NCBI RefSeq assembly: GCF_000526155.1
Contig: NZ_JAFN01000001.1
Coordinates: 454,824-518,823 of the forward strand
Origin: Deferrisoma camini S3R1
GTDB lineage: Bacteria > Desulfobacterota > Deferrisomatia > Deferrisomatales > Deferrisomataceae
Length of the DNA stretch: 64,000 nucleotides
Direction: 5' to 3'
A model generated the notes under the pieces. The model worked only from the letters and a program-made list of their open reading frames with translations, searched no databases and was not told where the DNA came from. Shown piece after piece: positions 20,560 to 47,002 of the stretch (positions within the stretch are counted from its first letter, which is position 1; the number at the start of each line of letters is the position of its first letter). The position numbers and the translations under genes were made by a program.

Positions 20560-20579
20560 TACATGGAAGGGGCTGGGAC

Positions 20580-24033: not shown

Positions 24034-24041
24034 GGACCCCC

Positions 24042-26653: not shown

Positions 26654-26830
26654 AAGGCTGGAAAGCTGGAAAGCTGGAAAGCTGGAAGGCGAGGACGTTG
26701 GGACGTTAGGACGTCGGGACGGTGGGACGTTCCGCCCGCACCTCCGCGCGTCCGCACGGTGAAACGACGAACGACCAACGACTCCCGGTGGTCCTGAGCC
26801 GCCCAGCTGCCTAGCCGCCTAGCGGCCTAG
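26653..26830. repeat. Composite octad/heptad repeats
   Basis: Four or five GGAAAGCT octads, then five GGGACGTT-type octads, then ACGACGA-type heptads, then four CCGCCTAG-type octads. At least four different short-unit arrays lie side by side within 180 bp, with no gene. Confidence 0.85.
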
Positions 26831-28635: not shown

Positions 28636-28730
28636 GGAGGTTCGTTCGGAGGTTCGTCGGAGGTTCGTCGGAGGTTCGTCGGAGGTTCGGAGGTTCGGAC
28701 GGGAGGTTCGGGAGGTTCGGGAGGTTCGGG
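28636..28730. repeat. GGAGGTTCG tandem repeats beside the transposable element
   Basis: Four 11-bp units (GGAGGTTCGTC) pass into about four 9-bp units (GGGAGGTTC), ending exactly where the left end of the transposase element begins. There are no unique spacers, so it is not a CRISPR array. Confidence 0.9.
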
Positions 28731-29947
28731 ACGCTGGTCGAAAATGAAGCTTGATGGCAAGGTCAGGCCGATGGTGAAAGGACGGTGCCATGCCGAGGAG
28801 CGCAACGGGAGGTTCGGGACGCTGGTCGAAAATGAAGCTTGATGGCAAGGTCAGGCCGATGGTGAAAGGACGGTGCCATGCCGAGGAGCGCAAGGTTGGA
28901 TGTGCCCGGGGTGCTTCAGCACGTGATGGCTCGGGGGATCGACGGGTACGACATCTTCCAGGATGAAAAGGACCGGGAGACGTTCCTGGAGCGCCTGGCG
29001 GCAGTGGTGGAGTGGGCCCGGGCAGATCTTTTGGCGTGGTGCCTGATGTCGAACCACTTCCACCTGCTGATCCGTCCGCATGAGGTGCTGCTTGCACCGA
29101 TCATGCGCCGGCTGATGACCGGCTATGCCGTGTGGCACAACCGGCGGCACCAGCGGCGGGGCCATCTGTTTCAGAATCGCTACAAGAGCATTGTTGTGGA
29201 GGAGGACCCGTACTTTCTGGAGCTGGTGCGCTACATACACCTGAACCCGGTGCGTGCCGGACTGGTGGAAACGATGGAGGTGCTGAACCGGTACCCGTAT
29301 ACCGGCCATGCGGTGATCCTGGGTCGCCGGAAGTACCCGTGCCAGAACGTGGACGAGGTTCTTGGGATGTTCGGCCGACGGGTGCGGGAGGCCCGGGTGC
29401 GGTACCGGGAGTTCGTGGCGGCGGGGTTCGGGCAGGGGGTGCGGGGGGAGCTTCGGGGTGGGGGGCTGGTCCGGAGCGCCGGGGGGTGGGCGAACCTACT
29501 GCGGCGAAAGCGGGAGGAGTGGGAGCTCGGGGACGAGCGGGTTTTGGGGGGCGGGGAGTTCGTGCGGGAGGTGCTAGGCCAGGTAGAGGAGGAGGTGCCG
29601 CGGCGTCCGGCAAGGGAGGTGCGGGAGATCCTGGGGGAGGTGTGCCGGGAGCATGGTGTGGGGGAGGAGTTGGTGCTGGGGCGAACGCGCCGCCAGGGGG
29701 TGGTGCGGGCCCGGGAGGAGTTTCTGCTGCGGGCGCACGAGGAGGCGGGGGAGAGCTATGCGGCGTTGGGTCGGCTGTGCAAGATGTCGCACACGTCGGT
29801 CCGGGCGGCCGTCGAGCGGGCGCGGAGTCGCCGAGCGGAGAAGGCCAAGGCCGTGTGAGGAAACCTTCGTTATCGACCAGCGTCCCGGATCTACGTTGAG
29901 AAGGCCAAGGCCGTGTGAGGAAACCTTCGTTATCGACCAGCGTCCCG
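28727..29947 (+). mobile_element. REP/RAYT-type element with inverted, duplicated ends
   Basis: The left end starts CGGGACGCTGGTCG..ATGAAG (28727-28749, repeated at 28815-28837). The right end is its inverse complement, CTTCGTTATCGACCAGCGTC (29865-29887, repeated at 29925-29947), matching at 21 of 23 positions. The left end is duplicated as an 88-bp tandem block and the right end as a 60-bp block. The transposase gene lies between. A decayed relative with the same end type lies at 32637-32989. Confidence 0.8.
28878..29858 (+). CDS. REP-associated tyrosine transposase (Y1, IS200-like)
   Basis: 326 residues. It starts MPRSARLDVPGVLQHVMARG, typical of the REP-associated branch of the HUH/Y1 transposases. 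The HUH motif is NHFHLL (His60, His62), and Tyr102 in FQNRYKS is the likely nucleophile. The last ~90 residues (REILGEVC..., GRTRRQGVVRAREEFLL, SYAALGRLCKMSHTSVRAAVER) resemble the helix-turn-helix DNA-binding domain IV of DnaA, an appendage seen in some RAYT proteins. It should nick single-stranded REP-type ends. Catalytic residues look intact, so it may be active. Confidence 0.9.
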   Translation: MPRSARLDVPGVLQHVMARGIDGYDIFQDEKDRETFLERLAAVVEWARADLLAWCLMSNHFHLLIRPHEVLLAPIMRRLMTGYAVWHNRRHQRRGHLFQNRYKSIVVEEDPYFLELVRYIHLNPVRAGLVETMEVLNRYPYTGHAVILGRRKYPCQNVDEVLGMFGRRVREARVRYREFVAAGFGQGVRGELRGGGLVRSAGGWANLLRRKREEWELGDERVLGGGEFVREVLGQVEEEVPRRPAREVREILGEVCREHGVGEELVLGRTRRQGVVRAREEFLLRAHEEAGESYAALGRLCKMSHTSVRAAVERARSRRAEKAKAV

Positions 29948-29990
29948 GATCTACGACGGATCTACGTTCGGATCTACGCGGATCTAACCG
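29838..29990. repeat. 60-bp tandem duplication and GGATCTACG repeats at the right end
   Basis: Bases 29838-29895 recur exactly at 29898-29955 (58 identical bases, period 60), covering the last codons of the transposase gene and the right end. The second copy runs into four spaced GGATCTACG-type units. Confidence 0.92.
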
Positions 29991-30221
29991 ATCGAAGGCC
30001 GAAAGGAGTGCTTGTCGGGTTCGCCAGGCGGTACGCTCGGGAGCACAACATCTCGTCGCAGGTCGCCGGTCGTAGGTCGTGAGTCGCCGGTCGCCTCGAA
30101 CTCCCCTGCCATGAGTTCCCGCCGCTTCCCCGGCTCGCTACGCTCACCGGGGAAGCGGACCCAAACCCCACTTCACACGACAACCACCCCGACACAGGGG
30201 GGATGCGGACCTGGGGGCCGT
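29859..30221. other. Intergenic region with heptads and a strong hairpin
   Basis: Besides the duplicated right end, the gap holds six GTCGNNN heptads (30055-30096), the inverse type of the GACCG heptads elsewhere, and a perfect 12-bp hairpin CCGCTTCCCCGG/CCGGGGAAGCGG (30122-30158, 13-nt loop). The hairpin may end the lipoprotein transcript arriving on the minus strand. No gene was seen. Confidence 0.6.
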
Positions 30222-32342
30222 TCAGTAGAACAACCGCATCTTCCTGAGCTGTCGCTGAGACATCCGTATCGTACCGAAGAATTGGAACCCGCCCTCGCAT
30301 TTGGCGGATCCTCCCCCGCCCTCACACTCACTCCAGCGTTCGACCTCCCCGAGGGCTGCCATGTGGATATAGATGCGGTAGCGGTGTCCCTTTTTCAGGC
30401 GGATCCTGTGCCGGATCGGATCGTCGTAGCTTCGCCTCAGGTCATCTCCGTGAACCTCTTTCAGAACGTCAAAGCCCGGGGAGATCTCCTCGACCGTCTT
30501 CCCTTCGGTCATGTCGTACAGATACATCCTCGAGACGGTTTTCGCCGTCGTATCCGACCTTATGGCGATGTCTGTATCGACGTGATAATCACGGTCGAAT
30601 CGAGTATCCAGGACAAAGGTGTGATCCGACTCGCCTTCGTAGACGAATTCTTTGTAGATGCTCAGCTTGTCGTTGAAGAAATGGTTCGGTTTATCATTAT
30701 AGTTGTTTTGACGATACGAAGCGTAGGGATTTCCGAATGCGTCCGTCCCGGCCGGATCGAACCTCATGGAGATCTCTAGAGGGTAGTCCAGGCGTTTGGA
30801 CGTGACGAAGGAGTAGCTGGCGTCTGGGTACGTTGTATGAGTCACTTCAGTGGTGCCCGCGCGGGTGGTCCTTAGGGTCGTGTAGCGAGCCTTGATACCC
30901 CGATAACGGGAGCTCGTCCGCCAGGGCAGTTTCTCCAGTTGGGCGCTGTGGCGTGAGGACACGATGCCGAAACCGTAACGGAAGGCCCCTTCGGGATCGC
31001 TTTGCAACCTGTCGTCGTAGCGTTCCACGGAGACGTAGTCCCGTACCGTTTCCCCTGCTTCGTCTTCCAGTTGGTACTCGCCTTCCGGGACGTCGCACTC
31101 GTACAGGGTGATCCGGTAGACGTCGCTGTAGCTCAGCACATTGCCGTCCCAGAGATCGTAGGGCTCCCCTTTTCGCTCGAATCTCTGCACGCTGCATTCG
31201 TACACGCTCCCGTCCTCCAGCGACCTGGCATAGAGCGGGCCCGGCGCGCTTTGGGCGGTCCGGATGTCGTAGAAGATCAGTCCTATCTCCATCTGGTCGG
31301 TCAGGGCCCTCCGGAAGAACTCCGCGCGCTTCAATACGTCTTCGGTCCCCTCCGGCAGAAACGATCGATCGTGGTCTGGGTGGGCGTAGTACGGGTCCGT
31401 ATAGGTAATGACCAGTTTCCACACGTTGTTGATGAAGCTGTATTCGGCCTCGTAATTGTTTAGGTCTTCTTCTATGTACTCCTTGAGCCACTCGTATTTT
31501 GTTCTTGCGATGCCGGTCTCGTCGTAGTCCTTGACGCCTGCCATATGTGCTTCTATTACCAGGTTTGTTCCTCTGGTCATTGTGTTGACCCAGTAGTAGG
31601 TGTAGTGCTCCAGGGAGTTGTAGGCGTTGATCAGGTCTTGGTTGTTGAGTTCGAGGAGGTCCCCGATGTTGTCTATCAGGTAGTTCGTATGAGTGGACAA
31701 GATGGGCGCGCCGGGAAGGGTTATCTTGTCCTGGATGTTGTTCACCTTCTCCCACGTCCCGTAGGTGTCCATGATGAGATCGTAGAGGTCCTTCATCGCC
31801 TGGCCATCGGCTTCGTCCGGGCCGAAGCCGGCGGTTCGGGCGATGAACTCCTGCTCGGCAGTACGGATGGTGCTGCGCGCGTCGTAGGGGGAGGCGATCA
31901 GATTCAGGAGCTCGTCGTGGTTCTTCTTCATCTGGCCTACGATCGTGTCGAGTTCGGTGCGGATCTCGTCGAGGTTTCCGACGATGTCGTCCAGGGTGCC
32001 CCGCATCGCCCGGAGCATCTCGGTCTGCTCCTCCTGGCCCTGGATCAGATACCCCTGCGGGTTGATCACCCGCATGATGAGCCCGCTGTCGACCTCGCCG
32101 TCGTTCTGGTACACCGCGTATCCCAGGCCACCGATCGTGGTCACGGCTGAGAGGATGCTGGAGTAGGGGACCGAGGTCTCCGATGGCCCCTCCGGCGAAG
32201 CGCCCAGCGCGGGGGCCGGGCTCTCCAGTATGGGGGGAGGGGATGCGTCCCCCTCGGGGTCAGAGTCCGAGTCCGAACCGCAACCGACCACCAGCCCGAC
32301 GCAGGCCAGGACGAGGAACAGCCAGCGCATCTTTCCGAACAT
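30222..32342 (-). CDS. Large lipoprotein of unknown function
   Basis: 706 residues. A type II signal peptide ends in VGLVVGC, making Cys21 the lipidated residue, followed by an acidic Ser/Asp-Pro linker (22-55). Then come a hydrophobic helix (about 58-80), a long amphipathic helix with coiled-coil character (about 103-150) and further helical segments to ~330. The C-terminal half is Tyr-, Asp- and Arg-rich and looks beta-rich. I do not recognise a family. The helical front with one hydrophobic helix loosely recalls alpha-helical pore-forming proteins, but this is speculation. AAAGGAG sits before the ATG. The GC content (mid-50s %) and codon use differ from the flanking genes, suggesting transfer. 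Confidence 0.75.
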   Translation of the reverse strand: MFGKMRWLFLVLACVGLVVGCGSDSDSDPEGDASPPPILESPAPALGASPEGPSETSVPYSSILSAVTTIGGLGYAVYQNDGEVDSGLIMRVINPQGYLIQGQEEQTEMLRAMRGTLDDIVGNLDEIRTELDTIVGQMKKNHDELLNLIASPYDARSTIRTAEQEFIARTAGFGPDEADGQAMKDLYDLIMDTYGTWEKVNNIQDKITLPGAPILSTHTNYLIDNIGDLLELNNQDLINAYNSLEHYTYYWVNTMTRGTNLVIEAHMAGVKDYDETGIARTKYEWLKEYIEEDLNNYEAEYSFINNVWKLVITYTDPYYAHPDHDRSFLPEGTEDVLKRAEFFRRALTDQMEIGLIFYDIRTAQSAPGPLYARSLEDGSVYECSVQRFERKGEPYDLWDGNVLSYSDVYRITLYECDVPEGEYQLEDEAGETVRDYVSVERYDDRLQSDPEGAFRYGFGIVSSRHSAQLEKLPWRTSSRYRGIKARYTTLRTTRAGTTEVTHTTYPDASYSFVTSKRLDYPLEISMRFDPAGTDAFGNPYASYRQNNYNDKPNHFFNDKLSIYKEFVYEGESDHTFVLDTRFDRDYHVDTDIAIRSDTTAKTVSRMYLYDMTEGKTVEEISPGFDVLKEVHGDDLRRSYDDPIRHRIRLKKGHRYRIYIHMAALGEVERWSECEGGGGSAKCEGGFQFFGTIRMSQRQLRKMRLFY

Positions 32343-32708
32343 GTCTTCTCCTTTCGTCTCACGACCTGGTCCGATCCTCGTTCCGGGCCGTTCGGGTGGA
32401 AGGAAGGGGGTGGGAGAAGGGGAGGGGAAAGCGGTGCCCTTGCGCACCCGGCCGCCTGAGCCCTTGGAGCGCCATCCGAGCCCGTCAATACCCGCCTTGT
32501 TTCGGGTCATCCTTCTTATCGGCCCCCACCGCCAAAGATTGAAACGCGTTCCCTGGTACGGCGCGGGTGCTCGGTCGACCAGTGGCTAACCGTTGGTGGG
32601 TAGGCGGACCGCCTCCACCCGGCATGGGTCGGGTTTCGAGACGCTGATCGGGGATCGGGTTTGTTGGTCAAAAACCACAAGTCAGACCGAAGACGAAAGG
32701 TCGGTGCC

Positions 32709-32973
32709 GTGCCAAGGAGCGCGAGGTTGGGCGTGCCCGACGTGCTTCAGCACGTGGTGGCTCGGAGGACCGACGGGTACGACATCTTCCAGGATGAAAA
32801 GGACGGGAGACGTTCCTGGCCTGGAGCGCTCGGCGGCAGTGGTGGGATGGGGCGGCGCGGATCTTCTGTGGTGTGTGCCGATGCTTTGGAGGGATGTCTC
32901 ACACGTCGGTGCTGTCGGCCGTGGAACGGGCGCTGCTGCCGCCTGGGACGGGGGATCTGGCGAAACCTTCGTG
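32709..32973 (+). pseudogene. Decayed copy of the RAYT transposase
   Basis: The start (VPRSARLGVPDVLQHVVARR, then DGYDIFQDEKD) matches the intact transposase closely. The frame then shifts, most of the protein including the HUH motif is missing, and the extreme C-terminus reappears (MSHTSVLSAVERAL at about 32894). Left (32637) and right (32967-32989) ends of the same type flank it. It is an internal deletion derivative. The rest of the 32343-33192 gap holds no gene; a TTGACA at 33101 lacks a good -10. Confidence 0.85.
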
Positions 32974-33192
32974 ACCGACCCGCGTCCTGAAGCCCCGCCC
33001 TTTTCCCCCGCGAGGGCCCGTGTTTTCGTACACCACGCACCTGGACTAACCGCCCCGGGCGCAGGGCCCCTCTGAGGAGATTCCGTCCGTTCCCATTCCC
33101 TTGACAAACCGGCGGTAGCCTGTTTCGTTGGGCGGACAAGGCAGCTCTCCGGCACCCCTCCCGTGCCCTTCCCCGGACCCGGAGGCCCTCCC

Positions 33193-36180
33193 ATGTGTGC
33201 CGCTTCCCTGTCCAGCCGGCTTATCCCCTTGGTCCTCGTGGCGGCCTTCGCCCTGGGCCCCTGGGCCTGCGGCTCGCGGCCCCCGGAAACCGCGGGCCGG
33301 GCGCTCGCCCGCCCCGCGGTCCAGACCTCTGCGGATCCCAGGGTCGAACTCCTGGATCACCAGGTCTGGGGTCGCGACGGCGAGCAGTGGGCCGCGATCC
33401 GGCTGGTGGACGGCTCGGGCGGCTTCGTGACGGGGCGGACGATCTCGGACTTCCGGGTCACCGAGACCCGACACCTTTCCGATGGCACCACCGAGGGCCC
33501 GGAGGAGATCGCCTTCGACGACCCCGGGTCCCAGTTCAACGGGCCGGGGTTCTGGGAACGCACCGTCACGGGCGAGAAGGTGGACCTTGCGGTCATCCTG
33601 GACCATTCCCTCGGGGAGCAGGCATCCGCGGTCAAAGGCGAACTGCACGAACTCGTGGACCGGCTGGCCGCGTCCCGGCTCGACTTTCGCCTGGCGCTGT
33701 TGGAGCAGGAGGCGTGCATCACGATCCATTGCGGCTCGGTGTTTCCCTTCCACGGCCCCATGGAGATCCAGGAACTGCATGAGGCCGTGAACACGCTGAA
33801 TCTGGAAGGCACGGACTTTTCTCCCGCCGCCACGTACGACGGCGTCCTCTGGGCGGCCACCGACCTGCTGTGGCGCGACGACCCCGGCGTGACCCGCATG
33901 GTCGTGGTGGTCACGAACGACATCCCCCAGTCGGTGTACGGCAACATCTGGGCTCTCGATTCCCACGGGACGGCGACGAACCGGGAGGCGGCGCGGCTGG
34001 CCCTGGAGGAGGCGGGCCTCACGCTGTACTACGCCCAGCCGGCCGATCCCGACGGGCTGGGGTACACGGAGAACTACGCCGACCCCGACCGGAACCCCCG
34101 GGCCGGGTGCTCCGCCGGGGAGGACGGCTGGGACTGCGGGTTCGGGGGCCTGGGCGTCCGCCTCGGCTGGCCCTTCGATCAGGACGAGATCCCCCTTCCG
34201 GATTCCGGACCCGTGGCCGACTCCCGGTACTACTTCGCCTGGCTGAGCCCGTTCGGGCCGATCGAAGACCCGGATGAGCGCCGCGTGGTGGAGATCCGCA
34301 CCGCCGACCCGGACGACTCCTCGGCCGAGATCGCGCTCACCTTTGAGTACGGGTATCCGGGTGAAGAGGGGGCCCTGCGCCTCGTGCTCACCGACGAGGC
34401 CGGCGCCCCCCTGCCCGCGTCGCTGGACGAGTGCGCGAGCGTGTACCGGGCCATGGGGGACCGGGCCGTGAAGCTCAAGGAGGTCTGCCCCGGGGACGCG
34501 GGGGAAGACGGCGTGGCGGTGGCCGACCTGCTGATGCCCGGCCCGGTGGTCCTGGAGATCGGGTACGAGTTCGCGACCGCCGGCTGGACCAACTCCTACT
34601 ACTCGGACCTCGGCTTCCAGTCCGCCCGGTTCGACGTGGAGGTCCCGGCCGGGGACACGTTGGAGGTCCCCTGGCAGGTGGAGGTGGCCAACCGGCGCGC
34701 GGACCTCTGGCGGATCCGCGGGCTTCTCAGGGACCTGAGGGGCTGGGGGCTCGGGAGCCGGCCGTTCGCCGGGGCGGCCGACCGGATCACGGCCTGGGTC
34801 GAGGGGCTCGAGGCCGGCCCCATGACGCTGGACGACAAGGACCGGCTCGTCCGGTTCACCCACGCCCTCGGGGGCTACCTTTACGCGGCGGGCTACGCCG
34901 AGACCCAGACCCGGAAGGTGGAGGCCGGCCTCATCGACGTGATCCGTCGGCTCCGGGCGATCATCCAGAAGCTTCGGGACCTCGCCGACGAGGTGGACAC
35001 CACGGCCTCGCTCACCGACGCCGAGGCCTCGGCCCGGCTGGCCGCGACCCTGGGGCTCGATGTCGAGGCCATCGAGGCGATCGGGGAGGCGGAGAGCCTG
35101 CGGGCCCTGGCCCGGGCACTCCTGGAGTACGTAGAGGATGAGCTGGTGCCCGAGGTGATCGGGAAGATCCTGGACCAGATCCCCCTGGGCCCTGCGGGCC
35201 CGTACGTGGAGCAGTTCCTCCTCGGCGTGGTCCTGGACGACTGGGACTCCACGGACAGCCTCTGGGACACCCTGGCCGAGCTCTCCCTGGACGGGGTGCT
35301 GGACGCGGCGCTGGCCGAGGCGCCGGACCTCCTGGGCGCGGTCCAGGACGAGGTGTTGGTCCGGATGCCCCAGGAGGCGGCCGACGCGTACCACCTCCTG
35401 TCCTCCCTGGTGGAGGCCCTGGCCCAAGACGGCACCGACGGCCTCGCCGAGGCGGTCCGGTCGGCCGCCCAGGACCTCCTCAACCGCTACGCGACCCCCG
35501 AGGCCGCCTTGGCCCGGGTGCGCGACGCCGTGTCCGGCCTCACCGACGCCCTCTCACCCGGGCCGGTGCGCGACGCCCTGGTTCCCTTGCTGGACCTCAT
35601 GCTGCGCGTCGCCCTGGAAGAGGGGGACTTCGACAACGACGCCGCGATCGGGGTGCTCGCCACGCTGTTCGCGCGCTACGCCATCCTGGACCCGCAGTTC
35701 AACCGCCCCGTGGCGGGGCAGATCGGTGGGCTTCTCGACGCGGCGCTCGCGTTCCAACCCACCCCGGCCGGGCCGGACTTCAGCGAGTACGACCGGGAGG
35801 TGGCGATCGACGATGCCATCGGGTACCTGCGCGACGCCTACTGGCTCGACGATGAACCGCCGGCGGAGGGCTGGAAGGGGTTTCACGAGATCGGTACCGA
35901 GGCCTGGGACGTCCTCGCCGCCCTGGAGCCCCTGGACGACATGGCCGACGCCCTTTCGACCGTGAAGCAGATCACCGAGGTGGCCATGTACCCCGTGGTC
36001 CTCGGCTTGTGCGCCCGGGGCTACCCCACCTGCTCCCTTGCGGACGACCTGCCGAACTTCACCCTGGCCCTCGACGCGGTGGGCCTGTTCACCCGGGCCG
36101 TGGAGCTGGCCCTCCGGCTCGACGACCTGCTGGAGATGCCAGACGAGATCGGGCCGGCAGCCGACGCAATATTCTTCTAG
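33193..36180 (+). CDS. Large VWA-like lipoprotein
   Basis: 995 residues. The lipobox GPWAC makes Cys26 the lipidated residue. Residues ~129-330 look like a von Willebrand factor A domain: VDLAVILDHSLGE (a degenerate DxSxS metal site), GTDFSPAATYDG with the MIDAS Thr, and VVVVTNDIPQS. An immunoglobulin-like beta region (about 360-500) and a long helical region to the C-terminus (about 510-995) follow. VWA lipoproteins usually bind protein partners at the cell surface. The function is unknown. The ATG is chosen for GGAGG 7 bp upstream over an earlier GTG. It is followed after 12 bp by the propeller protein gene, so the two are probably co-expressed and may interact. Confidence 0.8.
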   Translation: MCAASLSSRLIPLVLVAAFALGPWACGSRPPETAGRALARPAVQTSADPRVELLDHQVWGRDGEQWAAIRLVDGSGGFVTGRTISDFRVTETRHLSDGTTEGPEEIAFDDPGSQFNGPGFWERTVTGEKVDLAVILDHSLGEQASAVKGELHELVDRLAASRLDFRLALLEQEACITIHCGSVFPFHGPMEIQELHEAVNTLNLEGTDFSPAATYDGVLWAATDLLWRDDPGVTRMVVVVTNDIPQSVYGNIWALDSHGTATNREAARLALEEAGLTLYYAQPADPDGLGYTENYADPDRNPRAGCSAGEDGWDCGFGGLGVRLGWPFDQDEIPLPDSGPVADSRYYFAWLSPFGPIEDPDERRVVEIRTADPDDSSAEIALTFEYGYPGEEGALRLVLTDEAGAPLPASLDECASVYRAMGDRAVKLKEVCPGDAGEDGVAVADLLMPGPVVLEIGYEFATAGWTNSYYSDLGFQSARFDVEVPAGDTLEVPWQVEVANRRADLWRIRGLLRDLRGWGLGSRPFAGAADRITAWVEGLEAGPMTLDDKDRLVRFTHALGGYLYAAGYAETQTRKVEAGLIDVIRRLRAIIQKLRDLADEVDTTASLTDAEASARLAATLGLDVEAIEAIGEAESLRALARALLEYVEDELVPEVIGKILDQIPLGPAGPYVEQFLLGVVLDDWDSTDSLWDTLAELSLDGVLDAALAEAPDLLGAVQDEVLVRMPQEAADAYHLLSSLVEALAQDGTDGLAEAVRSAAQDLLNRYATPEAALARVRDAVSGLTDALSPGPVRDALVPLLDLMLRVALEEGDFDNDAAIGVLATLFARYAILDPQFNRPVAGQIGGLLDAALAFQPTPAGPDFSEYDREVAIDDAIGYLRDAYWLDDEPPAEGWKGFHEIGTEAWDVLAALEPLDDMADALSTVKQITEVAMYPVVLGLCARGYPTCSLADDLPNFTLALDAVGLFTRAVELALRLDDLLEMPDEIGPAADAIFF

Positions 36181-36192
36181 GGGAGCGGGATC

Positions 36193-38940
36193 ATGCGGGC
36201 GCTTCGGTGGTTCGGATGGGCCGTTGTCTGGGCGGCGATCGGGGCCGGCCCGGCCGGGGCCACGGTGTGGCAGATCGAGGACGTGGAGGAGGCCGGGTTC
36301 CGGGACCTCTCGCCCAAGGCGCTGGTGGCCGCGGGAAGCGAGGTGTACCTGGCGTACGGGCGGTCGCACCTGGTGACCCGGCGGTTCGAGGGGGGCGGGT
36401 GGAGCGACGCCACCGTGGTGGACCCCGACCCGGGCACGGGCTCGTTCGCCGCGGCCGCGGCCGACGGCCAGGGCGCCGTGCACATCGTGTACTACGACCG
36501 GGCGAACGGCGACCTCCGGTACGCCACGAACGCCGGGGGCGACTGGGCCGTGGAAGTGGTGGACCGCACCGGCGACGTGGGCCGGTACCCGAGCGTGGCG
36601 GTGGGGACCGACGGCCGGGTGCACGCGGCCTACTACGACGCCACCCAGGCCCGGGTCCGATACGCCGTGCGAAGCGGCGGGGTGTGGTCGTTCGAAACCC
36701 CCGACCCGGCGGACCGCCGGGGCCGGTGGACCGCCCTGGTGCTCGGGGAAAGCGGTGAGCCCGTGGTCTTCTATTACGACGCCGAAAACGGCGCGCTGGT
36801 CGCCGCCTGGCGGGCCGCCGACGGGACGTGGACCGTGGAGACCGTGGACGACGACGGCGACGCCGGCCGGGAGGCCGTGGCCGGGGTGTACGGCGGAACG
36901 ATCTGCGTGGCGTACACGGCCTGGGCGGATCCGGGCGGCGGAACCATCCGCACCGAGGTGCGCCTGGCCTCGGACACCCCCGGCGGGTGGACCGTCGAAG
37001 CGGTGGACACCGCGGCCACGGCCGAACGGGGCGGCCCGGCCTACCCGGCCCTGAGCGTGGCGTCCGACGGCACCGTGGAAATCGCCTACCGGGCCTGGTG
37101 GACCGAGACCTGGACGGATGACGAGGGCACGGAGCGCGCCGCCTACCACGTGGAGCTTCGCCACGCGATCGGCGGGCCGGGATCGTGGTCCATCGAGACC
37201 CGCGCCGAGGAGACGGAGAAGCCCGACCTGGGGCGCGGCATCTCCCTCGTGCACCGCGCGGGCCCGCACGGGGAGGAGCGGGTGCTCGCGTACGCGGGCC
37301 CGGAGGGGGAGCTCACGAGCCGCGGGTACACGTTCGATGCCCTGCCGGCGCCTTCTGCGGCCTGGCGCGGGCCCTGGCCCGTGGACCAGCCGGCCCTGCC
37401 GGGCCGGGCTGCGGCGCTCGCCCTGGATGCCGACGGCATCCCCCGCGCCGTGTACGTGGACGAGGTGCGCCGGAAACTCCGGCACGCCGTGCGAACGGCC
37501 GGGGGGTGGTCGGCCGAGGACGTGGCCGACGCCCACCCCGGGGCCGAGCAGACCGGCCTTGCGGTGCTCGACGACGGGAGTCTATTCGCGGCGTACCAGG
37601 GCAAAGACGAGAAGCTTCGGATCGCCTGGAAAAGCGGCTCGGCCGGGTGGCAGAGCCAGGAGGTCGGCGGGGCTCGGACCGGGCGGTTCGCCGATGCCGT
37701 GGCCGCGGCGGACGGCACCGTCCATGTGTTCTTCTCGGACGAGGACGCGAGCGCCCCAGGGCACGGCACCGCGACGGTTCCCGCGAACGCGGGGGGTTCC
37801 CCGTCCTGGTCCTCGGAGACGTTCACGTGGTCCCCGGACTACAGCGGATGGTGGCCCTCGGCCGCGGTGGACGCGGACGGGAACCTCCACCTGGTCCACG
37901 CGTCCCGCGACCTGGGCCACAGCGCCGACACCATCTCGTTTCGGCTCTTCTACGACACGAACGCGGGCGGCTCGTGGGCCGAGGAGACCGTGGACGAGGG
38001 GCCCCGGGTGGAGTACGCCTCGCTTGCGCTCGCGCCCGACGGCACCCCGCACGTGGCGTTCTTCGACGGCGTGTCGGGCGCGTTGAAGGTGGCCTCCCGA
38101 ACCGGCGGCGCCTGGTCGGTCCAGACCGTGGACGACGAAGGGTACGTGGGGCTTTATGCCGATCTGGCCGCAGACGCCGAGGGGAACCTCCACGCGGTGT
38201 ACATGGGGTGGGGCGCCGACCTCACCCGCTCGTTCGTGCGGTACGCCAACAACACGAGCGGCGCCTGGCACGCCGAGACCGTGGCCGAGGGGGCGGACGT
38301 CGGCGCGTTCGCCCGGCTGGCCGTGGCCGACGACGGCACCGTGCACCTCGTGTTCCAGGACCGGGACATCGGCACCCTGCGCTACGCCCGGTCCACGAGC
38401 CACGAGGTGAGCGTGGCGCCCGCCAGCGCCGACCTCGGCCCGGTGGAGGTGGGGGACTCGGCCGAAGCCGAGGTCACCCTGACGAACCTCGGACCCACGG
38501 CCCGCCGGGTGGCGTCGATGACCCTCACCGGCTCGGACGCGTTCACCCTGGTCACCGGCCTCACCGACCGCTACTGCGGTTCGACCACCCCCTGGCTCCA
38601 CCCGGGCCGCCCCGCGTGCACCGTGGCCGTGCGGTTTGCGCCCTCCCAGGCCGGGGCCGCAACCGCGACCCTCACGATCGCCTTCGAGGACCCGGACCTC
38701 CCTCCGGCCGCGGTGAGCCTCGCCGCCGAAGCCACCGACACCGGCGGCGACACCGGATCCGAAGGTGGAGGCGCGGGCGGAGACGAAGGGGATACCGGCG
38801 GAGACTCCGAGGGTGAAACCGGAGGAGGCGGGGATACCGGTGGAGGCGGTGGCGACGTGGACTCTGGCGGCGACACCGGCTCTGGAGGCGCGGACGCGGG
38901 CGGAGGAGGGGGGTGTTTTCTCCAGGCACTGGGGGGGTGA
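36193..38940 (+). CDS. Exported beta-propeller-like repeat protein, C-terminus probably truncated
   Basis: 915 residues. A signal peptide (1-23) is followed by a dozen or so ~50-residue repeats of the type G.W..E.VD..GDVG.YPS.AV..DG..H.AYYD (residues ~30-740), like sialidase-type propeller repeats. Next is a choice-of-anchor/ASPM-like beta domain (about 745-850; [19 protein letters not shown]), then a Gly/Asp/Thr-rich stretch ending [13 protein letters not shown]. Related proteins often end in Gly-run plus CFI-type cysteine domains, so the frame seems cut short. Its stop coincides with the breakpoint of a truncated moeB gene on the other strand. It may act as a secreted or surface binding protein. 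Confidence 0.82.
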
Positions 38941-39109
38941 GCCCCAGGGTCCCAACCCCTGCGGCCGCCAAATAGAGCAGCGCGGGCGAGCCCAGTCCCC
39001 CGGTCCTCACCACCATCACCCGCGCGGCCTTCAGCCGTTCCTGGCCCTTGCCGCCCACCTGAGGCAGGATGATCTGGCGGGAGTAACGGAGGACCTCGGC
39101 CGGGTGCAT
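38939..39109 (-). pseudogene. 5' fragment of a MoeB/ThiF-family adenylyltransferase gene
   Basis: On the minus strand 57 codons from an ATG read as the conserved N-terminus of MoeB/ThiF enzymes: [13 protein letters not shown], then [21 protein letters not shown]. The similarity stops abruptly at the stop codon of the propeller gene, and the following Asp of the nucleotide site is lost. The normal GAGGLGSP is RTGGLGSP here, a sign of decay. It marks a deletion or insertion breakpoint. The rest of the 38941-39319 gap, from 39110, has no gene until the promoter at 39268. Confidence 0.85.
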
Positions 39110-39267
39110 TCGCCGCTTGTCTCACGACTCCTCGACCCGAGAGAGCCCTCACCTTCGCCCTTTTGCTACTTGTAATCAACAGTTGGCCAGGCCTGCCGGA
39201 CGGCCGGCGTAATCGTTCCGTGAACCCGAGATGTATGAGGGGGGATCAGGGTGTAGAAAAAAAGGAT

Positions 39268-39296
39268 TTGACCGCTTTGCCTTACTCGAATAGTCT
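39268..39296 (+). promoter_or_regulatory. Promoter of the AbrB/PIN module
   Basis: TTGACC, 17-bp spacer, TAGTCT, about 20 bp upstream of the Shine-Dalgarno AAGGAG. Such promoters are typically repressed by the antitoxin/toxin complex. Confidence 0.5.
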
Positions 39297-39319
39297 TTGC
39301 GGTAAGGAGATCGTTGACG

Positions 39320-39562
39320 ATGTTGCTCAAGATTACATCGAAACGGCAAGTGACCTTCCCGGCTCGGGTGCTAGAAGCGCTGGGCGTGAAACCGGGAGAC
39401 CGACTCGAGCTGCAGGAGAGCCCCGAGGGGTACATCCTTCGGCCGAGGCGCATTGATCCTTCCCGGCTGGCTCCCTTGCGGGACAAGCTGCGGCGAGGCA
39501 AGGGAACCTTTGACCTCGAGGCGTTCCGGAACGAACCCTATGACCCCTCGCTTCGGGATTGA
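39320..39562 (+). CDS. AbrB/MazE-family antitoxin
   Basis: 80 residues. The N-terminal swapped-hairpin AbrB domain is clear (KITSKRQVTFPARVLEALGV, then KPGDRLELQES). Residues 50-80 are the toxin-neutralising tail. It should bind its own promoter and the PIN toxin, whose gene overlaps its 3' end by 23 bp. A TTG at 39314 is an alternative start with better Shine-Dalgarno spacing. Confidence 0.9.
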   Translation: MLLKITSKRQVTFPARVLEALGVKPGDRLELQESPEGYILRPRRIDPSRLAPLRDKLRRGKGTFDLEAFRNEPYDPSLRD

Positions 39563-39938
39563 CACCTCGATCCTGGTGCGGCTCCTCACGGGGGATCCGG
39601 AAGAGGTCTTTCGGGCCTGTGTGGAAGCGCTGACTTCGCTCGTCGAGGGGGAGGGGGCCGAAGTGTTCGCTTCGAACATGGTCGTCGGAGAGGCGTACAT
39701 CGCGGTGCAGCACCACTACGGGGTAACCAAGGCCGAGGCTCGTGCCGGCCTTGCGAGCGTGCTCCAGAGCGGACTGGTCGCCCCCCTTAACGGGAACGGG
39801 GTGATCGCCGCCCTGGAGGGTCCTTCCGGATGTGGGCTGGTCGACCGCCTCATTGCCGACGACTACCGTCGCGCCGGGCTCGTCACCCTGACCCTGGACC
39901 GGAAAATGGCCGCGCTTTGTGACGTTCGCCGGCTGTAG
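39540..39938 (+). CDS. PIN-domain toxin (VapC-like)
   Basis: 132 residues. Acidic residues of the PIN RNase site are visible: Asp in GIDTSILVRLL, Glu in VVGEAYIAV, Asp in GLVDRLIADD and Asp in TLTLDRKMA. It is predicted to be an Mg-dependent RNase inhibited by the AbrB-type partner. The overlapping start is typical of type II modules. Confidence 0.9.
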   Translation: MTPRFGIDTSILVRLLTGDPEEVFRACVEALTSLVEGEGAEVFASNMVVGEAYIAVQHHYGVTKAEARAGLASVLQSGLVAPLNGNGVIAALEGPSGCGLVDRLIADDYRRAGLVTLTLDRKMAALCDVRRL

Positions 39939-39968
39939 GACACGAGCGATCCCGAGGAAGGACCCCCT

Positions 39969-40331
39969 TTACCCCTCCTCCCGTCCTTCCTGGATCGCGA
40001 GCGGCTCCCCCCATAACGCGACCGCGTGCTCCACGGCGTTTTGGGCGAGGGGCACGCGGGGGAGCTCTTCCTCGGTGTAGCAGAACAGGTCCACGCCGAG
40101 TCCCACTTCCGCGAAGAACGGGAGGTACTCCAGGGGCCGGTCCAGGAACCGAACCTCCGAGCGGTCCACGATCACGATCACGTCCGCATCCGAGCCCGGC
40201 ACCGCCGTTCCCCGCGCCAGCGACCCGAAAAGCCCCACGAACCGCACCTCGGGCCGCGTTCTCCCCAGGTGTCCGGCAGCCTCCCTCAACCGGCGGACGG
40301 CCTCCTCACGATCGAGCCAGAAGACCGTCAC
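39969..40331 (-). CDS. MNT-type nucleotidyltransferase (antitoxin)
   Basis: About 120 residues. GLFGSLARGTAVPGSDADV is the GS-x10-DxD nucleotidyltransferase motif, and a third acidic residue follows in GVDLFCYTEEEL. In HEPN/MNT pairs this protein neutralises the HEPN RNase, in some cases by adding AMP residues. The GTG start is a guess; an ATG at 40367 would add 12 residues. It overlaps the 3' end of the HEPN gene. Confidence 0.88.
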   Translation of the reverse strand: MTVFWLDREEAVRRLREAAGHLGRTRPEVRFVGLFGSLARGTAVPGSDADVIVIVDRSEVRFLDRPLEYLPFFAEVGLGVDLFCYTEEELPRVPLAQNAVEHAVALWGEPLAIQEGREEG

Positions 40332-40701
40332 AGAACCGTAGGACTCTTTCCGCACAACCGATCGCATGGTCCGCGTCTTCTCGGGTGAACATGTCCTTGG
40401 GCGCTCCCTCGGCCCAGCCGTTGGGGTAGCGGGCCGGAATGTAGTACCGGTCGAGGTCCCTCGCGTCGGTCCAGAGCTCCGGTTCCACCGGCGTCCTCTG
40501 GGAGAGCCCTTCCAGGAGCCCCAGGACCGAGTGCCCCCAGGCGTCGCCGCCGAGGGCCTGATACACCGCCTTCAACGCCTTCTCCGCGGCCTGTTGGGCC
40601 GCGAAGCAGGCCCACTCGTGGAATCCGCCGGACCGGCTGTGCCGGGCCTGATCCAGATCCCTCCATGCCTGGGCCATCCAATCTCGTGTGCGCGCCGCCA
40701 T
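40306..40701 (-). CDS. HEPN-domain protein (toxin)
   Basis: 131 residues of a HEPN domain (PF05168-like): DWMAQAWRDLDQARHS, CFAAQQAAEKALKAVYQALG and DLDRYYIPARYPNGW. HEPN/MNT pairs act as toxin-antitoxin modules, the HEPN protein as an RNase; the strict RNxxxH motif is not evident, so catalytic activity is uncertain. The ATG at 40701 is chosen after GAGGCAGGGC. First gene of a two-gene minus-strand operon, back to back with the AbrB/PIN module. Confidence 0.88.
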   Translation of the reverse strand: MAARTRDWMAQAWRDLDQARHSRSGGFHEWACFAAQQAAEKALKAVYQALGGDAWGHSVLGLLEGLSQRTPVEPELWTDARDLDRYYIPARYPNGWAEGAPKDMFTREDADHAIGCAERVLRFCDGLLARS

Positions 40702-40932
40702 GCCCTGCCTCCTCGCCCCGACGACTCGCCCCACCTTAGCATCCGGTGCCCCCCTCCACAACGCCGCTCCCCATGGCACAGGGGTGAGGGTGCCCGGGGG
40801 CGCAGGGACAGGGAAATGGGGCGGTGCAGCGGCTCCGCGAGCGGTTCGCGGGCGTGGAGACCATCGGGCTGTGGGTCGGCGACGACCGGCGGGTGCGGGA
40901 GATCCCGGCAGGGGAGGGGCGGTGACCGGCCC

Positions 40933-43900
40933 TCAGTGGAAGTCCCGGCTGGGTGCGGTCTCGGGATGGGCGGGCAGGGGCGGGCGCCACAGCCGATCGG
41001 CCACCAGGTGCACCACGCCTTCCCGCGACTCCACCCGGCCGCTCACCCCCAGGACCGGCGCTGCCGCCACGAGCGCGGCGTGGCGCTCGATCACCCGCTT
41101 CCACACCACCACGTTCACGAACCCGGTCTCGTCCTCCAGGGTGAGGAACACGGTGCCGCCCGCGGTCCCGGGCCGCTGCCGGCAGATCACGACGCCGGCG
41201 TAGGACGCCCGGGTCCCGTGGGGGAGCCGGGCCAGGGTGCGGGCGTCGGGCAGGCCCCGTTCCCGGAGCCACGGCCGCAGGGGCTCCAGGGGATGGGCCC
41301 GGGGGCTCAGGCCCGAGGCCCGGTAGTCCCAGGCCACCGCCTCCGAGGAGCTGAGGGCCGCGAGGGGCGGGGCGGGCTCCGGGCCGAGGGGGAGCGCGGG
41401 GCGGCGGCTCGATCCGGCGCCTTTCGCGGCCCACAGGGCCCGACGCCGGCCCCGGCACAGGCCTTCGAGGGCCCCGGCCTCGGCGAGCCGGCGCAGCGCG
41501 TTCCGGCCGAGGCCGGTGCGCCGCGCCAGGTCCTCCACCGAGGCGAAGGGCTGTTCGCGCCGGGCCCGCTCGATGCGGGGCCAGTCCCGGGTGGGGGACA
41601 GCCCCTTCACGTACCGCAGACCCAGCCGCACGGCGTAGCAGGTCCTAGTGGAGAGGTGCCGGGCTGGCCCGGCGCGGACTCCAGAGCCCATGTCTCCTGT
41701 CTTCTGTCCTCTGGCTTCTGACTTCTGAAGTGTGCAGTCCCAGTCGCTGAACCGCACGTCCACGGGAAGGATCTCCAGGCCGTGGCGTTTGGCGTCGTCC
41801 ACGATGGTGGCCGGCGAGTAGAACCCCAGGGGCTGGGCGTTCAGCAGGGCGCAGGTGAACACGTCGGGGTGGTGGCACCGGAGCCAGGCCGTGGCGTAGG
41901 CGATCAGGGCGAAGCTCGCCGCGTGGCTCTCGGGGAACCCGTACTCCCCGAACCCCCGGATCTGCTCGAACACCTGTTCGGCGAACCGCCGCTCGATCCC
42001 CTTGGCGGTCATGCGCGCGATCAGCCGCTCGCGGTGGCGCTCGATCCGGCCGTGCCGGCGCCAGGCGGCCATGTCGCGCCGGAGCTGGTCGGCCTCGCCC
42101 GGGGTGTAGTCGGCCGCCACCACGGCGAGCCGCATCACCTGCTCCTGGAACAGGGGCACCCCCAGGGTCTTGGCCAGCACGGGCTCCAGGCACGGGTGGG
42201 GGTAGGTCACGGGCTCCTCGCCCCGCCGCCGCCGGAGGTAGGGGTGGACCATGCCGCCGGTGATCGGCCCGGGCCGCACGATGCTCACCTGGATCACCAG
42301 GTCGTAGTACGACCGGGGCCGGAGCCGCGGCAGCATGGACATCTGGGCCCGGCTCTCGATCTGGAACACCCCCACGGTGTCGGCCCGGCCGATCATGTCG
42401 AAGGTGGCCGGGTCGTCCGGGGGGATGCGGTCCAGGGAGAGCTCCACCCCGCGGTGCTCCCGCAGCAGCCGGAAGCACCGGTCCAGAAGGGTCAGGGCCC
42501 CCAGGCCCAGGAGATCCACCTTGAACAGACCCAGGTCCTCCAGGTCCTCCTTGTCCCACTGGATCACGGTGCGGCCCGGCCGGGCCGCGTTCTCCACGGG
42601 CACCAGGTCGCGGACCGGCTCGTGGCCCAGGAGGAACCCGCCGGGGTGGATGGAGAGGTGGCGGGGAAACCCCTGGATCTCCCCCACCAGCCGCCGGAGG
42701 AGGGCGTGCAGGGGATTCCCGGGGTCGAGCCCGGGGCCCTGCCACGGGTCCCCGTCCCCGCCGCGGGACGGCACGAGCCGGGCGAGCCGGTCCACCGCCG
42801 TGGCGGGCAGGCCCAGGGCCCGGCCCACGTCCCGCACGGCCGACCGGGCCCGGTACCGGATCACGTTGGCCACCATGGCGGCCCGATCCCGGCCGTAGCG
42901 CTTGTACACGTGGCGGATCACCTCCTCCCGGCGCTCGTGCATGATGTCCAGGTCGATGTCCGGGGGCTCGGCCCGCTCCCGGGAGAGGAACCGCTCGAAC
43001 AGGAGCTCCACCCGGGTGGGGTCCACGGCCGTGATGCCCAGGCAGTAGCACACCGCCGAGTTGGCGGCCGAGCCCCGGCCCTGGCACAGGATTCCCCGCT
43101 CCCGGCAGAACCGCACGATCTCCCACATGGTGAGGAAGTAGCCCGGGTAGTCGAGCTCCTCAATCAGGGCGAGCTCCCGCTCGATCTGGTCGCGCACCCG
43201 GGCCGGCACCCGACCGCCGAACCGCTGCCGGGCCCCCTCCCAGGTGAGCCGCCCCAGGAGGTCGGCCGAGGTGGTGCCGTCGGGAAGCCGCTCGGCAGGG
43301 TAGCGGTAGCGGATCTCCGCAAGGGAGAAGGCGCACCGCTCGGCCACCTCCAGGGTGCGGGCCACCGCGGCCGGGTCGTCGGCGAACCGCTCGCGGAAGG
43401 ACGGCGGGGCCTTGAGGTCGTGCCCGGCGTTGGGCTTGAGGCGGGTGCCGGCGGCCTGCACGGCGAGGCCGTGGCGGATGGCGGTGAGCACGTCCTGGAG
43501 CGGCCGGCGGTCCGGGGTGGGGTAGAGCACCTCCACCGCGGCGACCACCGGCAGGCCCAGCCGGCGGGCCCGCTCCCGGAGCCGGGCCTCCTGGGCCGGC
43601 TCGTCGGCCCGGCGGTGGCGGGCCACCAGGGCGTAGAGCCGGTCGCCGAAGGCCTCTTGCAGCAGGTCGGGCATGGGGCCGGGGTCCGCCTCCCGCACCA
43701 GCAGGCTCCGGTCACCGCCCCACAGGGCCACCAGGCCCGGGGCGTGCTCGCACACCTCGGCCCAGGTGACCCGGCTCGTCCCCTTCGGGCTCCGGAGCCG
43801 GCCCCGGGTGAGGAGCCGGCAGAGGTGAGCGTACCCGGCCCGGTCGGCGGCCAGGAGCACCAGGGTGGAGTCCGGCTCGCCGGGCCCCGGCCCGGCCACC

Positions 43901-44100
43901 GTGACCTCGGCCCCCACCAGGAGCTTCACCCCCAACTCCCGGGCCCGCACGTGGGCCCGGACGACCCCGTACACCCCGTCCCGGTCGGTGACCGCCACCG
44001 CCGGGAGCCCCAGGCCGTGGGCCCGCTCCACCAGCTCCTCGGGGTGGGCCGCCCCCTCCAGGAACGAGTAGTTGCTCTTGCACCACAGGGGAACGTACAT
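40933..44100 (-). CDS. dnaE2: Error-prone DNA polymerase III alpha (DnaE2/ImuC)
   Basis: 1055 residues. It opens with the PHP domain ([20 protein letters not shown]) and has the polymerase acidic motif [16 protein letters not shown] near residue 380. The [15 protein letters not shown] and [17 protein letters not shown] blocks follow, then the helix-hairpin-helix and OB-fold near the C-terminus. It performs translesion synthesis with ImuA and ImuB during SOS. Between FSDWDCTL and [13 protein letters not shown] it carries about 28 extra residues, part of which is encoded by a heptad repeat (41691-41731). The frame stays intact. The ATG is chosen because homology starts there; the open frame upstream has no homology. 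Confidence 0.95.
41691..41731 (-). repeat. Heptad repeat inside dnaE2
   Basis: Six 7-bp units (on the + strand TGTCTCC, TGTCTTC, TGTCCTC, TGGCTTC, TGACTTC, TGAAGTG). Read on the minus strand they encode a Lys/Glu/Arg-rich stretch ([11 protein letters not shown]) that is not part of the DnaE2 family pattern. The unit type resembles the intergenic arrays but lies within a gene and keeps the frame. Confidence 0.85.
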
Positions 44101-44132: not shown

Positions 44133-45569
44133 TCACTCCACCGTGCCCTGCCGGAACCACCGGCCCCGGGCCCGGTCGTGGAACGCCCACAGGATCTCGC
44201 CGCCGGCCAGACGGACGAAGCGGTACTCCCGGTGCGTCCCCCGGCCCCACCAGCCCCCGCTCACCCCGTAGCCGCCCCGCGTCTGGCCGGCCGGCTCCGC
44301 CAGGGGCGCGGGCCGGTCCAGGATCCGGCGGACCAGGGGGCGGAGCGCCACCTGCCGGGGCCGGGCCGGGGGGAGGTCCTCCAGGGGCTCCCAGGCGAAC
44401 CGGGCCTCGGGAAGGTGCCGGTCTGCCAGCCGGGCCCGCACCACGGCCCCCTCTCCCAGTTCGGCCCGGACCCGGGCCAGGGCCTGCAGGGCCGCCTTCG
44501 GGTCCCGCCGGGGGGCGGCCTGGAACAGGCCGGCCTGGGTCGGCCGGGCCGGCACGGCCCGGCCGGAGAGGACCACCTCCTCCACCCCGGCGGGGACGCC
44601 TGCCCCGGCCAGGCGAAGGTGCACCAGGTTCATGAGCTGGCGAGCGTCCCGGGTGGGCGCGGCGGGCCGGAGCCGCTCGGTTCGCACCGCGCCCCCCTCC
44701 AGCCGCAGGTGGATTCCCAGCTCCGCCAGCAGCATCCCCCGGCCCCCCATCCGGCCCAGCAGGTCGTCCAGGAGGCCCTTGATCCGGAACACCAGCCGGT
44801 GCAGGTCGGCCTCGGGCGGCTCGATCACCGCGCCCACCCGCAGGGGCTCGGGCGGGGCGATGGGCTGGAGGGGAAGCTCCCCCCGGCCCGAGACGAACCG
44901 GTGGAGCGCCGAGGCCGCCGGGCCGAACCGCTCCGCGAGCGAGGCCGCCGGAAGGGCCAGGAGGTCCCCGGCGGTGCGCACCCCCAGGGCCCCCAGCTCC
45001 GCCGCCAGGCCCGAGTCTGCGCCGAGCCGCGCAAGGGGCGCCCCCCGCACCGCGGCCGCCTCCTCGCCGGGGCTCCGGAGTACCCGGATCCGGGCCCTTC
45101 CGGAGCGCACGGCCGCCAGGGCGCCGCACCGGGTGAACCCCACGGCCACCCGGCCGGCCAGGCCCAGCCCGGCCAGCTCCCGCCGGATCCCGGCCGCCCA
45201 CCGGGCCGGCTCGGGATGGAGCCGGCCCAGGCCGGAGGCGTCGAGCCAGAACACGCCGGGGTCCCGGTCCCAGGGCTCCACGCCGGGGGTGAACCGCAGG
45301 AGCCGCCGCAGGATCCGGTCCCTCCAGCGGGCCACCTCGGCCGGGGGCACCGCGGCCGCCCGCAGCCCCGGCGCCGCGGCCAGGGCGGTCACGTAGCGCA
45401 TGCCCGGCGCCACCCCCTGGTGCCGGGCCCGGGCGTTGGCCCACAGGACCCGGCCGTGGGGGTGGTCCCGGTCCACCACGGCCACGGGCCCCGTGGCCCA
45501 GCCCGGCCGCCGGAGCACGAGGACCTGGAGCGGCAGGGCCGGCACCTCAACGCAGGCCGTCCGGTCCAC
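44133..45569 (-). CDS. imuB: Y-family polymerase-like protein ImuB
   Basis: 478 residues. It follows the Y-family layout: N-terminal palm/fingers ([20 protein letters not shown]), a helix-hairpin-helix thumb ([16 protein letters not shown]) and a little finger. ImuB proteins usually lack the catalytic acids and act as a hub linking the beta clamp, ImuA and DnaE2; the DxD of active enzymes is not evident. The GTG start overlaps imuA by 23 bp. dnaE2 follows 32 bp downstream. Confidence 0.9.
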
Positions 45570-46179
45570 GGCACACCTCCCCGTGGCCCCAGCCCGGGAG
45601 CCGTCGCTTGTCCCGTAGCACCCGCACCCGGCACCGGAACCGGCCGGGCCCCAGCGGCTCCCGCACCGCCTCGGCCCGCACCGCCACCAGCGAGCCCAGC
45701 GAGGGCGCGCCGGCGGGCTTGCGGGTCAGGAACAGCACGAGCATCCGGTGCTCTCCGGCGAGCCCGGCCAGCCGCCCCTGGGCCGCCGCCGGCACCCGGG
45801 GCTCCTCCCCCAGGTCCACCACCACGAGCCCGAACCCCCCGGACCGGGCCAGCAGCTCCGCCGCCCGCAGGGCCTGGCGGGCGTCCCGGGCCCGCACCAC
45901 GGCCAGGGCCTCCAGGTCCACGCCCCCCTCGGCCGCGTCGGGCGGGTAGAAGGAGCTCCCGGCCGGGGTGATCCAGGCCGCGGGCTCGCCCCGGCGCTGG
46001 GCGTCGAGCACCAGGGAGAAGGCCAGGGTGAGGGCGGCCGAGGCCCCCCGGGCCGAGAGCTCGGCCAGCCGGCCGGCCAGGGTCGGGAGCTCCCACCGGG
46101 CCGGGGGAAGCTTCTCCTCCAGCCGGGCCGCGGGCACCACGGGGATGCGGGCCAGGGCGCCGGCGGGCCTCGGGCTCAC
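45547..46179 (-). CDS. imuA: ImuA-like RecA-related SOS mutagenesis protein
   Basis: 210 residues. RIPVVPAARLEEKLPPARWE is a RecA/ImuA-like N-terminus. The middle has a RecA-like core (AAWITPAGSSFYPPDAAEGG, FGLVVVDLGEEPRVP) without a recognisable Walker A. That matches ImuA, an accessory factor for ImuB/DnaE2. The start GTG overlaps the lexA stop (GTGA). The assignment rests on size, core pattern and position between lexA and imuB. Confidence 0.82.
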   Translation of the reverse strand: MSPRPAGALARIPVVPAARLEEKLPPARWELPTLAGRLAELSARGASAALTLAFSLVLDAQRRGEPAAWITPAGSSFYPPDAAEGGVDLEALAVVRARDARQALRAAELLARSGGFGLVVVDLGEEPRVPAAAQGRLAGLAGEHRMLVLFLTRKPAGAPSLGSLVAVRAEAVREPLGPGRFRCRVRVLRDKRRLPGWGHGEVCRGPDGLR

Positions 46180-46778
46180 TCCAGCCTCCTGCGCACCTCG
46201 ACCACCTTGCCCAGGATCTCCACCTCGCCCGGGGCGGGCACGATGGGGGCGAAGGCCGGGTTCTCGGGCAGGAGCTCGACCCGGCCGGACCGGGTGCGCA
46301 GGCGCTTCACCGTGGCCTCGTCCCCCACCCGGGCCACCACGATGTCGCCGTCCCGGGCCTCGGGCTGGCGCCGCACGACCACCAGGTCCCCCGGCAGGAT
46401 GCCCGCGCCGGTCATGCTCTCGCCCCGGACCCGCAGGGCGAACAGGTCCTCGCCCCGGCCGCGGGTCTCCACGGGCAGGTAGCCCTCGGCCTCCTCCACC
46501 GCCGTGTCCAGGGGCCCGGCCGGCACCCGGCCCAGCAGGGGCACGAGCACGGTGGAGCCCGGGTGCCCGGGCAGGCGGTACCCCCGGGCCCGGCCCCGCT
46601 CCACCACCAGCCTGCCCTCGGCCACCAGCCGCTCCAGGTGGGCCCGGGCCGTCTGGACCGCCCGGAACCCCAGGGCCTCCTGCACCTCCCGTACCGTGGG
46701 GGGCCGGCCGGCGAGGATCCGGTCCCGCACGAACTCGAACACCTTCTGCCGGGTCTCCCCCGGCCGCGTGCGCGGCAT
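46176..46778 (-). CDS. lexA: LexA repressor
   Basis: 200 residues. Winged helix (TVREVQEALGF), autocleavage site Ala87-Gly88 in GRVPAGPL, catalytic Ser121 in RGESMTG and Lys158 in EATVKRL. It represses SOS genes until RecA-stimulated self-cleavage. Here it heads the imuA-imuB-dnaE2 operon, so it presumably controls itself and the mutasome. Some bacteria carry a second LexA dedicated to such an operon. The start ATG has AGGAGG 8 bp upstream. Confidence 0.95.
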   Translation of the reverse strand: MPRTRPGETRQKVFEFVRDRILAGRPPTVREVQEALGFRAVQTARAHLERLVAEGRLVVERGRARGYRLPGHPGSTVLVPLLGRVPAGPLDTAVEEAEGYLPVETRGRGEDLFALRVRGESMTGAGILPGDLVVVRRQPEARDGDIVVARVGDEATVKRLRTRSGRVELLPENPAFAPIVPAPGEVEILGKVVEVRRRLE

Positions 46779-46808
46779 GGTCGACCTCCTGGAGAGGGAT
46801 GGGTCCTC

Positions 46809-46837
46809 TGTATAGCAGACAAATGTATGCTTGGCAA
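46809..46837 (-). promoter_or_regulatory. Sigma-70 promoter of the lexA-imuAB-dnaE2 operon
   Basis: On the minus strand: TTGCCA, 17-bp spacer (AGCATACATTTGTCTGC), TATACA. The AT-rich spacer is the likely LexA operator position, but no E. coli-type CTG-N10-CAG or Gram-positive GAAC-N4-GTTC box is present, so the operator is of another type. Confidence 0.7.
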
Positions 46838-47002
46838 CCGCCCCCCATTCCGCCGTGACGGCGGGCCGCCGAGCAGAGGTGTCGAGTGCCCCCGGGGAGA
46901 TCCGGGGCTCCGGGATGGGCCGAGATCCGGTCCTTTGCGGGCCGAACCCGCCGGTTGGTACCATGGCCCGCCCCGCCCCCCACCGAATCCACCGGAGACG
47001 GC

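Follow-up and report, generated by a model that had tools for sequence, protein, structure and literature searches.

A degenerate tandem array of 7-bp units lies in frame inside dnaE2, the gene of an SOS-associated, error-prone DNA polymerase, in the 64,000-nucleotide stretch of the Deferrisoma camini S3R1 genome analyzed here (the window). We consider it most likely, with a probability of about 0.8, that a dispersed repeat has settled in frame in a disordered, tolerant loop of DnaE2, where the encoded peptide does nothing beyond serving as a flexible linker. Repeat DNA recurs in one loop of this SOS mutagenic polymerase among unrelated bacteria, whereas the equivalent turn of its replicative paralogue holds none.

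The dnaE2 gene and its SOS cassette

The intact dnaE2 (imuC) gene occupies window positions 40936 to 44100 on the minus strand and encodes a protein of 1055 aa, which was assigned to DnaE2/ImuC by its match to NCBIfam PRK05672 (1356 bits against a curated cut-off of 939) and by a PHP-Pol3-HhH-OB architecture (Pfam PHP, DNA_pol3_alpha, finger, HHH_6, and OB; PDB relatives 2hpi and 4iqj). It is the last of four consecutive minus-strand genes that form a LexA-linked cassette, preceded by lexA (46179 to 46964; TIGR00498, 159.6 bits, above cut-off), an imuA-like RecA-related gene (45550 to 46176; NF033429 ImuA, E 2e-8, below the curated cut-off), and an imuB-like Y-family polymerase gene (44136 to 45569; Pfam IMS, E 8e-12). 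Compared with its ortholog in a congener (G001) and with the insert described below excluded, dnaE2 has a dN of 0.0088 and a dS of 0.043 (dN/dS ∼0.2), and is therefore under purifying selection; the reading frame was open in the dnaE2 homologues examined in relatives.

A degenerate heptad array inside the coding sequence

The array spans 41691 to 41731 on the minus strand, its consensus reading CAGAAGA in the coding direction and TGTCTTC on the plus strand, and encodes DnaE2 residues ∼790–804; it lies at about codon 790 of 1055, with three quarters of the gene before it. Tandem Repeats Finder (TRF) reported a period of 7, 5.3 copies, 83% match, and a score of 46 over 41691 to 41727. The units are degenerate (TGTCTCC, TGTCTTC, TGTCCTC, TGGCTTC, TGACTTC, and a partial TGAAG), and no perfect repeat exceeds 14 bp, or about two units. 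At a lag of seven, 27 of 34 positions were identical, and the best 41-mers in twenty random 64-kb sequences that kept the short-range composition of the window reached only 21–24; thus, the array exceeds chance. The heptad array is real and in frame inside dnaE2, as an earlier note on this DNA had claimed: the 1055-aa frame is open, with conserved blocks on both flanks. The six heptads counted in that note amount to five full units and a partial sixth. Its view that they encode part of an insertion of ∼28 residues is close to what was found, since the loop is ∼24–26 residues longer than usual and the heptads span only the first half of the insertion.

The variable segment between the conserved WDCTL motif and the next conserved block comprises 31 codons (residues 792–822; 41635 to 41727, minus strand), as delimited by codon mapping and comparison with the congener; the same gap holds 18 codons in G001 and a median of 7 residues among homologues. 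Beyond the heptads, the second half of the insert is non-repetitive and includes a small perfect hairpin, GCCGGGC-TG-GCCCGGC, at 41658 to 41673. In an AlphaFold model built from a 22-sequence alignment (mean pLDDT 83), the segment links a strand at residues 790–793 to one at residues 822–825, and pLDDT falls below 50 at residues 797–818. The segment is thus predicted to form the disordered tip of a β-hairpin immediately before the (HhH)2 region, with the polymerase core on its other side, and the loop is probably solvent-exposed. The solved structural relatives are DnaE1-type alpha subunits (2hpi, 4iqj, and 2hnh); in 22 DnaE1 proteins the homologous turn was constant, at 18–19 residues over the interval used, and none carried an insert.

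A dispersed family of heptad-built repeats

The CTTCTG heptad family recurs elsewhere in the 4.24-Mb genome, where 25 pattern matches fell at ∼18 other places on the single contig searched (4,236,551 bases); a reversed-pattern control is not a fair one here, since reversal of the heptad gives nearly the same repeat. A codon-usage test placed none of these ∼18 other places within a gene, and the same test called the dnaE2 copy in-gene. Many of the copies could be aligned beyond the heptads themselves, with a left arm of CAGAATT-, CAGAGGG-, or CAGTGGA-type units, a short spacer, and a CTTCTG arm, and the five copies inspected had inverted arms of 20–37 bp that were 70–85% complementary and separated by spacers of 14–24 nt. 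Judged from these alignments, the source of the heptads is most aptly regarded as a dispersed palindrome with a stem composed of heptads, and similarity to it suggests that the dnaE2 array was derived from this element. The dnaE2 copy consists of a single heptad arm and so lacks the inverted-arm hairpin of REPs and MITEs, but like in-frame intragenic dispersed repeats of the REP or Rickettsia palindromic element (RPE) type, it sits in an intact ORF and has family members elsewhere in the genome. Arrays in the window matched no Rfam family, tRNAs being the only Rfam matches, and searching the literature for the heptad sequence itself retrieved only unrelated papers.

Different repeats at the same site in relatives

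Relatives carry different sequences at this point of dnaE2; the class-wide search covered 12 genomes. DnaE2 of G001 is 97% identical to that of the window genome (G000), and the flanks of the insert are 97–99% identical, but the 18 codons at the same point in G001 are made up of an 8-bp array, GGCTGGAA AGCTGGGA GGCTGAGA GGCTGGGA. The two inserts cannot be aligned, have periods of 7 and 8, and belong to separate dispersed families. The GGCTGGAA octad pattern matched 150 times in G001, 176 times in the window genome, and 31 times in an order relative (G007), with no matches in G003, G004, or G029 and none in reversed controls. Another order relative, G004, carries a third array at the same point, of CAGGGGG type (7 bp, 8.6 copies), and the loop is short in the family member G003 and in G029.

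The same loop across phyla

Across 82 DnaE2 homologues, drawn from the 80 most similar sequences together with eight hits in whole genomes and hence not a random sample, the gap holding the array was the most insertion-prone position of the protein (L010 was excluded from this profile). At least 12 residues were present there in 25 of the 82 and at least 20 in 16, the median being 7, and many of the proteins have only 5–7. Second in rank was a loop of the PHP domain, near residues 71–78 of the window protein, with 20–78 residues in seven of the 82, including L011. A wider survey of phyla added few DnaE2 loops, and the regular expression used to find the loop missed several loci.

The inserts share no common sequence, length, or composition, and several proved to be repeats of other kinds. 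Near-perfect in-frame arrays fill the loops of a Blastopirellula homologue (L093; 15 bp × 6.0, 98%) and a Myxococcales homologue (L085; 12 bp × 4.3, 95%); these could vary in copy number without a frameshift, and are more promising candidates for variable length than the array in the window. Some inserts are palindromes. In an Acidobacteriota homologue (L062), the insert of ∼95 bp belongs to a palindromic family of at least 40 copies, most at 88–96% identity, and pieces of the inserts of L064 (Hydrogenedentota) and L135 (a gammaproteobacterium) match >60 and >25 places in their own genomes, respectively. The insert of L139 resembles a REP pair by eye, yet no dispersed copies of it were found in the genome that carries it, and the long inserts of L015, L108, and L067 contain no strong tandem repeat; therefore, not every insert is a repeat. 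A dispersed-repeat origin was found for five of the six inserts tested, a sample that includes the two congeners and was taken from the most similar homologues.

Origin of the insert and alternative explanations

The heptad array in dnaE2 would be a single arm of a heptad-built repeat dispersed through the genome, now lodged in frame in the turn of a β-hairpin. If the polymerase tolerates additions at this loop, selection would purge only frameshifting insertions and those that introduce a stop codon, and the loop would therefore gather whichever repeats abound in each genome. Entry may have occurred by a transposition-like event that inserted the palindromic element, one arm of which was then lost, or the array may have grown de novo by slippage. 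What we infer is tolerance of the insert, rather than a benefit from it. An unlikely alternative is that the insert is functional and tunes the (HhH)2 region where it meets the ImuB thumb or DNA, with repeats recruited because they change length quickly. A study of the mycobacterial mutasome models the adjoining (HhH)2 region as an ImuB contact (PMC12926913), so that an effect of the insert on mutasome assembly is possible; inserts also recur in DnaE2 of many phyla and in none of the 22 DnaE1 proteins sampled, and genes for DNA synthesis and repair are reported to be prominent among REP-tagged genes (PMC3733652). Against this reading stand the heterogeneity of the inserts, the many DnaE2 proteins with only 5–7 residues at this point, and the predicted disorder of the segment. 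It is distinctly unlikely that the loop is a cross-phylum docking site because inserts alter the (HhH)2–ImuB contact or the grip on DNA and so tune induced mutagenesis, with repeat load feeding back on mutation rate. A single ancestral insertion that was inherited and then diverged in sequence, in place of repeated arrivals of repeats, would explain why this point is occupied by an insert in each of G000, G001, and G004, whose ancestor may have had one, and it fits the near-identical flanks of the two congeners; however, the unalignable inserts of those congeners, with their different periods and separate dispersed families, and the short loop of the family member G003 make it very unlikely.

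The earlier note had also proposed a phase-variable mutator switch, in which slippage of the heptads toggles DnaE2 and three-unit changes keep the frame. The arrangement has the geometry for it, being a tandem array in frame within a mutator gene, where gain or loss of one or two heptads would truncate the protein at 813–835 aa (820–828 aa for one unit) and a change of three would preserve the frame, and octad arrays elsewhere do vary between the congeners (9.4 against ∼3 copies at 23960). As in the simple sequence repeat (SSR) contingency loci of Haemophilus influenzae, the tandem unit is not a multiple of three and lies in or near a gene, but the array has no long run of identical units, its perfect repeats ending at 14 bp, and it is far from the start codon or a promoter; the phase-variable heptads of Haemophilus number 13–38 copies in promoters upstream of the gene, and its tetranucleotide repeats within ORFs lie near the start codon (PMC2651432). 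Moreover, G001 differs from the window genome by replacement with another repeat family and not by heptad count, every orthologue examined has an open frame, and purifying selection acts on the gene, which together leave the switch highly improbable. The broader suggestion of the same note, that repeats can enter genes, has been strengthened, because the heptad belongs to a dispersed family and repeats unrelated to it occupy the DnaE2 loop of many bacteria; these unrelated inserts are also equivalent insertions in species without the heptads, one of the two observations that the note had named as evidence against its switch. Finally, repeats are prone to misassembly, and the array could be an assembly error or lie in a mis-called reading frame, but its shortness, the frame open over 1055 aa between conserved blocks, and codon-usage scores that indicate coding in the same frame on both flanks render this extremely improbable.

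Relation to known repeat systems

Repetitive extragenic palindromes inside dnaE2 are already known: GTAG/CGTC REPs were reported within ORFs including dnaE2, uvrA, recB, and polA, with DNA-repair genes prominent among them, and flexible linkers or loops were proposed as the sites at which REPs are tolerated (Di Nocera et al., 2013; PMC3733652). The array described here resembles those elements in being a dispersed repeat in frame in a DNA-repair gene, DnaE2 itself having been named, but it differs in that a REP is a tagged palindrome of 20–40 bp, whereas the occupant here is a heptad array, and in the congener an octad array. That study (PMC3733652) also gives a common site only for recB, whereas in the present comparison one DnaE2 loop is the recurrent site across phyla. 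The RPEs, the classical example, are likewise repeat DNA translated in frame inside normal proteins (PMC10969869, PMC3733652); they are palindromes of ∼150 bp with a conserved encoded peptide and are found in many genes, whereas the dnaE2 array is 41 bp long, one-armed, and, of all the places examined, the sole copy inside a gene. Heptamers are known to be abundant in bacteria (PMC4679880, PMC4692102). Long SSRs and heptameric repeats of bacteria also have 7-bp units and are dispersed and mainly intergenic (PMC4679880), the GGGNATC repeats of Xanthomonas and Nostoc being a case for comparison (PMC4692102); those have a set unit and an intergenic bias, whereas the dnaE2 array has degenerate units, lies in coding sequence, and is akin to an inverted-repeat element.

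As far as the literature search reaches, the new elements are a site common across phyla, heptad and octad occupants that are not REPs, and different occupants in two congeners; keyword searches of two surveys of DnaE polymerases (PMC3919608, PMC12926913) brought up no mention of inserts in this loop. The inserts are natural insertion alleles with which to approach an issue already brought up for REPs in 2013, namely whether repeats lodged in repair genes alter induced mutation or are carried along neutrally. The presence of distinct repeat families at one coding position in two congeners also offers a case for studying the origin and turnover of heptad and octad arrays.

Other repeats in the window

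The octad family that occupies dnaE2 in G001 is also present in the window, at 26653 to 26687 and 21615 to 21654. A consistent strand polarity of octad arrays along the chromosome was considered and rejected, as exact matches occurred on mixed strands. The intergenic octad array ACGTCCCA at 23960 to 24034 has 9.4 copies in the window genome and ∼3 in G001, a difference between congeners from which it follows that arrays evolve between species. The GACCGAC and AGACCGA heptads (14276 and 20522) are embedded in repeats of ∼120–150 bp (14183 to 14332 and 20458 to 20578), and these longer repeats have >30 matches at 76–95% identity in G001.

In the window, ∼10.9 kb (∼29891 to 40820) separate the tandem-repeat zone from the end of dnaE2, compared with ∼1.9 kb on the corresponding contig (C28) of G001, which suggests that the segment adjoining the SOS cassette is a species-specific island. 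Two perfect tandem duplications reported by TRF, at 28718 to 28893 (88 bp) and 29838 to 29955 (60 bp), are close to the ends of two G001 contigs.
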